Shown piece after piece: positions 50,141-54,817 of a DNA stretch of 64,000 bases. The translations under genes were made by a program, and so were the position numbers. The notes beneath the pieces were generated by a model. That model was not told the DNA's origin and did not search any database. It was given only the letters and a program-made list of their open reading frames with translations. Source of the DNA: Fennellomyces sp. T-0311 (taxonomy: Eukaryota; Mucoromycota; Mucoromycetes; Mucorales; Lichtheimiaceae); assembly GCA_025266875.1 (NCBI GenBank), contig JALLLT010000065.1, forward strand, positions 1 through 64,000, read 5' to 3'. The stretch's first letter is position 1. Every line of letters starts with the position of its first letter.

Positions 50141-53100
50141 TTAAGTGCTGGTGTTTTGTTTCGAAGGTGATTTTACAAGAGTATACCCGACCTCACTAGT
50201 TTCTCGTCCGTCATCGCTTGTCATCAGCTCTTCTTGCTTTTCTTTTTCAGAGCTAGCATGCTCACCACGGATTTTTTCGGAGTACGCTTCTCGCAAGCGT
50301 TCACCGTAAACCATGCATAAAATAATAAACACAATGTTGATGACATTGATAGCTGCCAGGATAGTAAATAACTTTCCGGTTCCCAAGCCATGCAACGCTT
50401 GTGTTGAAAAGATCGTTGTGATAGCACCCATTACCCACCGAAAGCAGTTAGATACACCAACCTATATCAAACTATGTGAGAAACCAACGATAGGCACGTA
50501 GTGGTACTATTTCTTTACCGCAGTGGCTGACCGGCCAGGCTGTGAGTCAACAAGGTAGACGTTCGAAGGTGTGAAAGCGGACATTTGACCAAACGCATCT
50601 AATTCTAATAATGAGAAAGGTAATTTGACCACTGCACTTGAAACATACAAACAAAAAGTCCAATGATGGGCGCATAAATCCCGATAGCATTTTCGGTGGT
50701 CCATCCATAGATTAGGAAACCGCAAGGGATGAGAAAAAATGAAGGGAGGGCTGCACGAAGTCGTAATTCCGGTACAATTTTTCCGTCTGTTCGTTTGCTA
50801 TAGTATTGAAGAACATAATCGGAAACTCGACCGGCAATCACTGAGCCTATCATCAAACCAATTCCAAATGCAAGATACATCAATCCAACTTTGGTTTCAC
50901 TGAATCCGTAAACGGTTTGAAAGGTATCAGTAATGGTTGGATTCTAGTCATGCACTTCCATCAGTATTTTGACATTTATCCAGTCAGTGTGACGAATAAA
51001 CATACCAGGAAAAAAAGACATCCGTTGATGATGGTAATGTATACAGTGATAAGAAGCAAGCTGGGATCTCGCAACATCAGCAGCATAGGACCAAATGATC
51101 CGATAACTTCTTTAAAACCATTACGACTCGCATTATCTTGCTCTGTCTTTTGCTTTCGTAATGTTTCCGGAAGGAAGGCGGCAACCAATATGAAAAGTAC
51201 AGCACCTTCGTCAAGCAGTTGTTAGACAAGCTAGTTGGCTTTATCAAAGTGTAATTCTCACCGAAAATAGCAATGAAATAAAATGTGGATTGCCATCCAA
51301 GATACTGACAAAGCGCGCCTAAAAAGCTAAAGATTAGATCCAAAATTCAAACTATAGTATAATATACCTCCAATAGTTGGCCCTAATCGATCTTTAGTAT
51401 TATTATATTATGGCAAGTAAAAAGAGTTTGCTAACATACCGGTGACTGGTCCCAAGAGTGGTCCCAGGTAGAAAAAGCCGTAAGCCCTTCCTCGCTGGGA
51501 AACAGGAATAGTGTCGGCCAAGACACCAGCACCTATTGGAGAACAGCATAAATTTTCTGAAATGTTTAATTTGTGCATGAATTTTACCCAACGTTAAACT
51601 CGCACAAGTGCCTGTTGCTTGAATGGCACGGAAAAAGATAAGCATTCCGACATTTTTGGAGACTGCACAAATAACAGAAGCTATAATGCCTATAAGGATG
51701 CTCAGCAAATACATGCGTTTTCTCCCGTAAAAGTCGCTCAAGCTAGCCCAGATCAGAGGCTACATAAATAAGAAAAATCTATTATAACATGGATCTGTGC
51801 ATACAGAGCACCATAGAAAAAATAAATTCAAGATATATTCATAGCATATTAAGATTTTTACATATTTTTTTTTGGATTATTTTGAATATATTTTGAATAT
51901 ATTTTGAATATCGTGTTCGAATATTTCTTAATATATTTTGAATATGTAAAAAGAAACGAATATTTTTCAAACATATTAATACGGTTGCGCATATGCTTAA
52001 ATCCTTATGGTGCGCAATAACTGTTTATTACTAATTCTTATAGTACTATCGTATTGCTACATATACTACTATTGCTAGACACATCACTTACCTCCATTTA
52101 TCCCATCATATCGTGTTTTGAACCCTTCATTCCGACGCCTTCGTATACCTGCGCTTCTTTACAGTTTTTTCCTTTGAGCGTGGTTTCTTCATCCGCATCC
52201 TTTGTAACTTTCTTGGGCGGTCTACCACGTCGTTTTTTGGGGTGAGTAATCGTTGTTTGTGTTCTTAATAACTTGGGACTTTTTTGGCTTCCCAGTTTCT
52301 TGGATCCTAAAATTTTGAAGTCAATGTTTAAATTTCTTACCTCCATCTAAACTTGTGTCATCGTTCACTTCAATCGCCCCAATACCTTGACTATAGTTTT
52401 GCGCCTCAGTGATAGAAGCTGACTTCGCTGAAGTGAAATAAATATCAGTACCACGCGTCTTAAAAAGATAATATATGTCAACGTTTTAGAATGACTTATG
52501 CTTATGGACCACCCTTGTACTGCTGCTTGCTTCAGATGGTGTGGCTCGCTGCTGTGGTATACTCGTGGCAGCTGACTTTTGCTTGTTACCCTTGACCGGC
52601 GACTCCTGTTGTATACCTTTGCCTGTTTTCTGCCGTCGATCTCGCGACTGTAGCCTTTTTGTGACTTTTTGATAGTTCTTGTGTGTTAGATTCAGGTTCC
52701 CTTCCATCGCGTTCACTAGAGAGTTTAGTGTCCAAGGTAGGTAGCTTTTTAAGGTTGCCCTCAACTAACTCCGGAAGATGATCATCACAAAGTAAATCAT
52801 CTACTTCAAGCAGACCAGGGGTTCGTAAAGTTCGTCCATCTCCGTGCAGACGCACACTATCGTCGTCGTCGTCGTCGCAAGAAATACTGTCACTATCGCC
52901 GTCACTACTGGAGTCGCCGTTCTGAAAATCCCTTAGCTCATCGTCTTCATCATCACTTGACATCTCCTTAGAAGCATAACTTGATGAACGCGACTGAGGG
53001 TTTGCATAAGTGTCACTGGAACTATAATATTGTTTTTCAATCAAAAAAGTCAAAAAGTGGACAGATAATACCTTTCAGCGGGGGTTGCTCTGGTGTTGGA

Positions 53101-54817
53101 AGGAGCTTCGGTAGTACTAGTGATAAAGTTGTATTAATAGTAACTCATGGATGTACGACAACCTACACACACCGATTGCCAGCCATCGCACCTGGGGCTA
53201 AAGCAAACAGTAGAAAAGGTGTTAGTTTTGATAATTAGTGTTTTGCCGTGCTTACTTTCTTTATCCTTTACACCCCAGAATGCTTTACGCATCATCAGCA
53301 TCGCGCCCCAGCTTTCAATGCACGCAACAAGAGGGTACTCCTTACCAACCAGTTTTTCATACATTCCTTCGGCTTCCAGCCGTACTTGTCTTGAAAGATG
53401 CTCCCAAGTATTTGATGGACTCAAATTGTGATGCGCTCGAATATCAAGAACAAGACCTGCTGTATACATGAGTGCATTACCTTTAAAAGTTGCGTAATAC
53501 CGATCATGGTAAGGGATATTCTGCTTCCTTAAGATGTCTTCGCATAGGTACTCGTATTGAGACCAGCGAAATTGGAGCGATGTTCCTTCTCGGACGAGTG
53601 GTTGCCTAACATCGCGAGGGATCTCTACATCTGCGAAAGGATTTTGCGCAGGAGAAGATTGTGGGTAAGATGGAAGCGGTCCTTGCGTGGTTGTAGTTGT
53701 GGCCAACGCATCAGCAAATTGTAACGCGAAACCTGAACCCTTGTCCTTGAGTTTACTCGTACCTGTTTTTACTTCCTCCCGATCGGTTGACACGGCTAGT
53801 TCCAAGCGGATGAGTCGCTGATCAACCGCAGCAAATCCGTCGGTAACGCACTTCTTGAATTCGCCAATGGTTTGGAGAAACGTTGATAAAAGCCTTGTCG
53901 TTGTGTCGTCAGCCATCGGTTTGAATGTTGTAGCAGAAAAAGTACAAAAAATAACAGCTGCGCGAATTTGTTTCTGGTAGTGACAGACGACGACGGAAAT
54001 TTAGGAATAGGCAGTAGGATGTTTAAGGAAGGTGTTACCTACGGAGGAACGGGCCGAGAATCTATTGTCAGAATGAATATCTGAGTAGACACAGGTGATC
54101 CGGGTAAGAGAGGGCTTACGAAAGAGCAGCGACAATATATTGGCGAAAAGTTCCTGGCATTTGCAGAATTACAGAGCTAACGAGAGGCAACGGACCTTGG
54201 CCGTACAAGACAGGTAGTAGCCCCAAGCGACACGTAGTAGTTGCGGCTAACGACTTAATTGGATTTACAGGACGCGCAAAAGGTATAGGCACCACGGAAT
54301 ATTTCTACTGTTCGCATCAGTAGCATAACAGCTGTTTTGAAATGCCTCCGACATATATATATCTCGCGAATATTTTCTAAATATCTGAATATCTGCTTAA
54401 TATATTTTGAATATTTGTGAATACATGAATTTTCTGAAAATATAATTTAAAAACTTGAATATATCCTGAATTTATTTTTTCCATGGTGGAGAATGTTATT
54501 GATCTTACAGCAACGCCCATAAATACGAGATAGGTGGACACACTACCGTTGACAGCTTCCATGCTTGTATTCAAATCATTAGCCACACTCAGAAGACCTG
54601 GCAAATAAATAAAGCTTGCGAAATGGCCGGTCAGCCCGCTCAATCCTACGACAAAGATAATGGCTTGCTTGCGACGCATAGAAAGTTCCATCGGATCATC
54701 TTGAGCATATGGATCACCAATCACATATTTGATCCAATTTTGTCGCAGCTGTTTATCATCTTGGCTACAATCGTTGGCGGGTATCGTTGTGGATATACTG
54801 TCTTCTTTTGTTGCCAT
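50141..54817 (-). CDS. MFS transporter, DHA1-type drug:H+ antiporter, nine exons
   Basis: Proposed exons 54817-54509, 51759-51588, 51532-51440, 51382-51368 (15 nt), 51318-51262, 51205-51006, 50943-50649, 50598-50519 and 50461-50141 join in frame to 513 aa. The first membrane helix starts near RRKQAIIFVVGLSGLTG. Motif A is SDFYGRKR (111-118). The antiporter motif C is intact across two splice junctions: GPLLGPVTGPTIGG. Twelve helices are expected, with a hydrophilic acidic C-terminal tail. Role: proton-coupled export of drugs, polyamines or similar compounds at the plasma membrane; substrate unknown. Seven introns are 49-62 nt, but intron 1 is 2,749 nt because it contains a mobile element. The coding frame is unbroken, so the gene may still be functional if the long intron is removed. 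Confidence 0.88.
51809..54488. mobile_element. 2.68-kb TIR element nested in the MFS intron
   Basis: The left end CACCATAGAAAAAATAAATT then CAAGATATATTCA and the reverse complement of the right end CACCATGGAAAAAATAAATT then CAGGATATATTCA form a 34-bp terminal inverted repeat with two mismatches. GAG flanks both outer edges as a 3-bp target duplication. TTGAATAT-type motifs are reiterated just inside both ends (51,875-51,960 and 54,360-54,470). Removing the element and one GAG turns the 2,749-nt MFS intron into a normal 66-nt intron. The CAC terminus, 3-bp duplication and subterminal repeats resemble CACTA/EnSpm elements, but the terminus is CACCA and no transposase is present, so the family is uncertain. 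Confidence 0.85.
52098..53916 (-). CDS. Element-borne multi-exon gene: N-terminal domain, acidic middle, AT-hook
   Basis: ATG 53,916 opens an exon (MADDTTTRLLSTFLQTIGEF) with a helical N-terminus, a linker, and a conserved-looking domain containing SLQFRWSQYEYLCEDILRKQ and later WGAMLMMRKAFWGVKDKE. Splice signals at 53,257 (GTAAGC), then GTGTGT and GTATTA donors with TAG acceptors, link it in frame to an acidic Ser/Asp-rich exon (SSDDEDDELRDFQNGDSSSD, then a DDDDDD run). The 3' part is less certain; the last frame ends at 52,098 and contains the AT-hook KKRRGRPPKK. Exon borders beyond 52,700 are unresolved. No DDE, tyrosine recombinase or helicase motif is visible. It may be an element accessory DNA-binding protein or captured host gene. 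Confidence 0.55.

Follow-up and report, generated by a model that had tools for sequence, protein, structure and literature searches.

The 64,000-nucleotide stretch analysed here (the window; positions 1 to 64,000 of contig JALLLT010000065.1 of the mucoralean fungus Fennellomyces sp. T-0311) carries, inside an intron of a gene for a transporter of the major facilitator superfamily (MFS), a mobile element of 2,680 bp (positions 51809-54488) that is very probably a recently transposed, non-autonomous EnSpm/CACTA DNA transposon of the dSpm-like kind, an internal-deletion derivative with a variant CACCA end. Since its ends, its subterminal repeats, its second gene and a transposase remnant are shared with a tnp2-encoding element of the same genome, we take it to be derived by internal deletion from a two-gene CACTA element. 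The family is new, while the type of element is already known. An earlier note, made from the letters of the window alone, had described an element with terminal inverted repeats (TIRs) in a normal-sized MFS intron, and this description is borne out by the ends, the GAG duplication and the empty 66-nt intron reported below. The note had also held that the element lacks a transposase and fits no named fungal family cleanly. On both points we arrive at a different picture: a transposase remnant lies at 53978-54325, and EnSpm/CACTA fits, given a relative with CACTA ends, its match to the Pfam family PF02992, and the repeats and second gene that the two share.

Ends of the element and copies in the genome

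The inverted ends of the element (left, 51809-51841, reading CACCATAGAAAAAATAAATTCA... on the plus strand; right, 54456-54488, reading CACCATGG... on the minus strand) are 33 nt long and 94% complementary (31/33). Of the 34-bp TIRs with two mismatches described earlier, the mismatch count thus stands but the length does not, because the 34th base is a third mismatch. The termini of the family read CACCA..TGGTG and are CAC..GTG inverted repeats; the canonical CACTA or CACTG pentamer is absent from them, whereas the tnp2 relatives read CACTA. As the earlier note had seen, a GAG target-site duplication can be read on each side (51806-51808 and 54489-54491). Allowing up to 3 mismatches, a 22-base end motif matches the window twice, at the two ends, and is found in none of 100 shuffles, and across the genome (45.6 Mb in 182 contigs) the 33-base end pattern gives 55 matches at the same tolerance, compared to none for the reversed control. 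Further inside, TTTTGAATAT repeats lie on the plus strand at 51880-51945 (element positions 72, 83, 94 and 128), and a right subterminal repeat region (54397-54425, plus strand) holds TTTTGAATAT at element position 2597. Repeats of the TTGAATAT type occur near both ends, and 8 of the 9 occurrences of TGAATAT fall within the terminal 300 + 300 bp of the element. At a tolerance of up to 3 mismatches the motif TTGAATATNNTTTGAATAT occurs 7 times, each time close to one of the element's two ends, while 0.66 occurrences would be expected; this agrees with the subterminal repeats reported before.

The genome-wide copy count that the earlier note had called for revealed a multicopy family, mostly with 3-bp duplications. 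At least 21 uninterrupted full-span copies are present, the window copy included; all copy counts are lower bounds, with 40 of 44 candidates scored. Over its 2,680 bp the window copy has four exact counterparts elsewhere in the genome (five identical copies in all), and the pairwise divergence of the 21 aligned copies has a median of 1.05% and a maximum of 3.1%. Perfect 3-bp duplications flank 17 of 22 copies, compared to 1.7% expected by chance; this count combines 16 of 21 (the window copy, 19 single copies and the outer ends of a composite on contig C97) with one further copy on C8.

Beyond the uninterrupted copies, the genome holds the C97 composite, two split copies (C128, C55) and several partial ones. 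The composite (L026, C97:409835-415284) consists of two copies arranged head-to-tail, the second without its first ~120 bp, with TAT flanking both sides. The split copies are parted by 6.2 kb (C128:206845-215695, match overlap 8 bp) and by 3.9 kb (C55:1567-8159, match overlap 2 bp). We considered these two as longer, autonomous forms and rejected the idea, since split points with overlaps of 8 and 2 bp fit nested insertion better; judged from the split points, other transposons appear to have inserted into these copies.

Relatives encoding a tnp2 transposase

Two longer relatives of 5.3-5.8 kb, L029 (on the same contig as the window) and L030, are 99.6% identical to each other over their aligned parts and have the termini CACTATAG/CACTATGG (CACTA..TAGTG). 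L029 encodes a transposase of the family PF02992 (Transposase_21/tnp2, E 1.2e-16), the tnp2 assignment being based on this profile match; a DUF4218-like continuation of the protein matches below the cut-off. In L030 the transposase frame is open over 857 codons, and about 400 bp of L029 (L029:1533-1947) that are missing from L030 break the frame that L030 keeps open. In both relatives a second gene, the counterpart of the second gene of the window element, runs divergently from the transposase. The window element is 73-80% identical to L029 and L030 in aligned blocks, and the window element and L029 agree in the distance of TTTTGAATAT from the ends (72 bp on the left, 83-84 bp on the right), with five copies in the former and three in the latter (on the left side at 72 and 107).

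What the window element holds of the transposase is a C-terminal remnant of about 350 bp on the plus strand (53978-54325, start approximate), which aligns with the last part of the L030 transposase, ends at the same stop codon and contains an in-frame TGA and two internal gaps. A 49-codon block of the remnant differs from L030 at 6, 7 and 16 sites in codon positions 1, 2 and 3, respectively, and this excess at third positions indicates that the transposase was still under constraint during much of the divergence. In a partial, more diverged copy on C99 the remnant also adjoins the second gene and the missing 3 kb are absent too, and the copies on C8 and C131 have the same stretch of remnant and second gene. 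The loss of the transposase thus predates the common ancestor of the copies compared in this respect.

Scoring of 87 of 502 candidates puts the tnp2 relatives that come next after L029 and L030 at 62-63% protein identity. The genome holds many diverse relatives of the tnp2 transposase (114 match rows), and five of these loci (on C117, C161, C112, C127 and C27) have a second-gene relative close by on the opposite strand, so that the two-gene layout seems to be old in this genome.

The host intron

The MFS gene is read on the minus strand, where exon 1 (54509-54817, 103 codons) and exon 2 (51588-51759, 3' limit read by eye) enclose an intron of 2,749 nt (51760-54508) that begins with GTAAGATC and finishes with TATGTAG. 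These limits agree with the GT at 54,508 and the AG at 51,760 named in the earlier note. When the element and one GAG are subtracted, 66 nt remain, as the earlier note had calculated. At this codon junction three paralogues of the same genome carry element-free introns of similar size (68 nt in L040, 59 nt in L043, 60 nt in L044). The 68-nt intron of L040 aligns to the emptied window intron with a score of 17.0, which is reached by 1 of 2000 interior shuffles (mean 6.2). A nine-exon model, whose remaining introns were picked by eye, yields a conceptual protein of 516 aa, 99% of which is covered by its match to a Fennellomyces paralogue, in keeping with the intact frame described earlier. In a protein search covering lengths of about 284-903 aa at E <= 1e-60 (7,996 candidates scored), which gave two Fennellomyces paralogues, on contigs of 247,399 and 215,637 bp, the conceptual protein crosses the junction without a gap in all 49 aligned homologues (70 returned). 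The paralogue introns and the gap-free junction are strong support for the reconstruction of the empty site, as distinct from splicing as such. Judged from these sequences, it is plausible that the element survives by being spliced out together with the intron.

The second gene

The second gene of the window element lies on the minus strand and has a first exon of 218 codons (53263-53916, ATG at 53916), which is the part conserved in the CACTA relatives, and downstream exons (52098-53074) encoding an acidic stretch followed by the AT-hook-like KKRRGRPPKK, with uncertain splice sites and a frame shifted relative to L029. The first exon is 67% identical between the window element and L029/L030, and comparison with L029 gives an omega (ratio of nonsynonymous to synonymous substitution rates) of 0.138 at a dS of 1.46, where synonymous sites are near saturation; this omega indicates that the gene was long constrained. 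The main exon matches no Pfam family at E <= 1, an AT_hook match to the protein stays below the cut-off (E 0.24), and a protein search returned one relative only. A structure prediction from a two-sequence alignment reached a mean pLDDT of 37.9 and was left out of fold searches. By analogy to TnpA of Spm and TNP1 of Tam1, as these are presented in the available text of PMC2613891, the second protein is a candidate terminus-binding accessory factor.

Such a factor might have been retained for aiding a family without transposase, for example by binding the subterminal repeats, in which case the family would be a mini-system under selection and not a remnant that has become defective. This would be in line with the low omega towards L029, saturated as its synonymous sites nearly are, with a first exon that is stop-free in 23 of the 28 copies at >= 94% identity, and with a ratio of nonsynonymous to synonymous changes per site (pN/pS) that, on few changes, is 0.48-0.89 in the four comparisons to which divergent copies (C99, C8, C131) contribute. 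Within the 21 copies, however, the first exon carries 32 nonsynonymous, 2 stop and 9 synonymous variants (pN/pS 1.13), a pattern that fits neutral drift since the burst, and six comparisons with other copies, likewise on few changes, give 1.04-2.67. The 3' part, moreover, is frameshifted against L029 at two places; 19 of 21 copies agree in the length of the first shift, the other two being off by one base, all 21 agree in that of the second, and the acidic frame ends at an identical stop codon in all 21. We consider selective retention unlikely and regard the second gene as now mostly a passenger of an internal-deletion derivative. It seems distinctly unlikely, too, that a transposase-less element with a putative terminus-binding gene out-amplified its autonomous relatives by making its own binding factor and borrowing the catalytic protein only, an idea for which the numbers to be considered are the at least 21 uninterrupted copies of the window family and the 2 tnp2 copies found of the nearest lineage.

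Insertion sites

The position of the window copy had led the earlier note to propose, as one of two possibilities, that the element targets introns. We examined 21 insertion sites by reading open reading frames (ORFs) across the empty sites and by two Pfam scans, each of ten ORFs or parts of ORFs from the flanks (2/10 and 8/10 matched at E <= 0.01, with some matches below the cut-off). This procedure replaced codon-usage scoring of the flanks, which was dropped because it proved too weak for hydrophobic exons, a known MFS exon having scored negative; exon finding being weak, intronic sites may have been missed. The window copy is intronic and L027 probably so, L018 and L024 lie in ORFs, and the junctions of the other 17 sites could be assigned to no exon.

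Targeting of introns, or of transcribed genes, at integration would agree with the window copy itself and with L027, which is preceded by a first-exon-like ORF without a Pfam match, is followed by ORFs that match MFS_1 (E 7e-5, below the cut-off, and 9e-14) and thus probably lies in an intron of another MFS gene. Pfam-supported ORFs are also found within 200-320 bp of L009 and L020; with L019 included, the distances are 200-480 bp. In contrast, L018 (C121:175237-177923) interrupts an ORF of the beta-lactamase-fold superfamily that is open over 282 codons apart from the insertion, and the halves of this ORF match Lactamase_B_2 at 3-44 (below the cut-off) and 99-200. L024 is inserted close to the 3' end of an ORF of 205 codons that matches no Pfam family, and L022 and L023 have retroelement-like ORFs as neighbours (an integrase core match at E 2e-13 and a weak match to an integrase C-terminus, the latter below the cut-off). 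The duplicated triplets have no obvious consensus. Open frames of 106-131 codons, of uncertain meaning and with no positive coding score, cross the empty site at L013, L019, L023 and L028. Intron targeting is not supported by these sites, and we hold it to be very unlikely: two intronic copies in 21 could be explained without it.

Classification and proposed origin

In the available text of PMC12730594, fungal elements with CAC..GTG ends and 3-bp duplications are classed as EnSpm. The window family has CAC..GTG TIRs, 3-bp duplications (17/22) and a subterminal motif at both ends, and the tnp2 transposase is found in its relatives L029 and L030, the window element holding the C-terminal remnant only. 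Since the fungal definition in that text is just CAC..GTG, the CACCA end lowers typicality and not membership by this definition.

Several observations weigh against our classification and the history we propose. Neither tnp2 relative has a perfect 3-bp duplication (0/2; TTC/CAA in L029, TTC/ATT in L030), which counts against them as recent movers, and in aligned blocks they are only 73-80% identical to the window element. Among the 87 of 502 tnp2 candidates scored we found no tnp2 gene closer than L029/L030, so that the true helper may be elsewhere, lost or missing from the assembly; neither these candidates nor the genome-wide end-pattern search gave a tnp2 element with CACCA ends. Five of the 22 copies (L016, L022, L023, L025 and L028) are without a perfect 3-bp duplication, for which later damage or recombination is our guess. 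In the search range of about 284-903 aa, the window MFS gene had no annotated protein of high identity.

A member of another superfamily with 3-bp duplications, such as PIF/Harbinger, that resembles CACTA through sequence exchange is highly improbable: the duplication and a two-gene ancestor would be compatible with Harbinger as well (PMC12730594, available text), but a single tnp2 (PF02992) element is collinear with the window element at both ends, in the subterminal repeats, in the second gene and in the remnant of the transposase, an alignment that by itself appears to exclude this origin largely. The scanned proteins gave no Myb/SANT match at E <= 1 while the relative carries PF02992, so that the pair of Harbinger-type transposase and Myb/SANT protein that marks PIF/Harbinger is not found.

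For the EnSpm/CACTA element we propose the following history. The ancestor would have been a CACTA element carrying two divergently transcribed genes, the tnp2 transposase and the second gene, and an internal deletion of roughly 2.7-3 kb would have taken nearly all of the transposase. In the dSpm model, internal-deletion derivatives move with proteins supplied in trans, for which ends and subterminal repeats suffice (PMC2613891, available text). As both termini and the subterminal repeats stayed, the family presumably was mobilised in the same way, still being cut and pasted in trans by a CMC-type transposase with 3-bp duplications as the result. The L029/L030 lineage is the best candidate for such a helper in this genome and would be the most likely source of the transposase. 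One copy may then have landed by chance in the 66-nt MFS intron, where the insertion would be nearly harmless if the enlarged intron is still spliced.

These results document that an early-diverging fungus has recently undergone a burst of a non-autonomous CACTA family, and they correct the view of the element as unclassified and intron-seeking. With a tnp2 relative on the same contig, movement in trans and the tolerance of a large insertion in a tiny fungal intron become directly testable.

Comparison with known systems

Among the matches listed in our search of the open-access literature we found no description of this family. The comparisons below refer to the available text of each source. 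The fungal EnSpm/CACTA elements of the CMC clade (PMC12730594) are alike in their CAC..GTG ends, 3-bp duplications and tnp2-type transposase, here found in the relatives; they differ from the window family in that the latter has CACCA instead of CACTA and holds a transposase remnant only. Mobile fungal CACTA elements have been described in PMC12810828, amongst them CNIRT6 of Cryptococcus neoformans, whose ends carry CACTG. In contrast to the window family, CNIRT6 encodes its own transposase, and that text reports no clearly non-autonomous copies mobilised in the authors' screen.

In build the window family is like the maize dSpm/I and soybean Tgm derivatives (PMC2613891), which are likewise internally deleted with ends and subterminal repeats kept and which depend on proteins acting in trans. 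The window family, for which such dependence is presumed by analogy, differs by keeping a separate, divergently transcribed second gene with a largely open first exon. In its location the window element resembles soybean Tgmt* (PMC2613891), a CACTA-type element with a 3-bp duplication in intron 1 of the F3'H gene; Tgmt*, however, is 20.5 kb long, potentially autonomous and defines a mutant allele.

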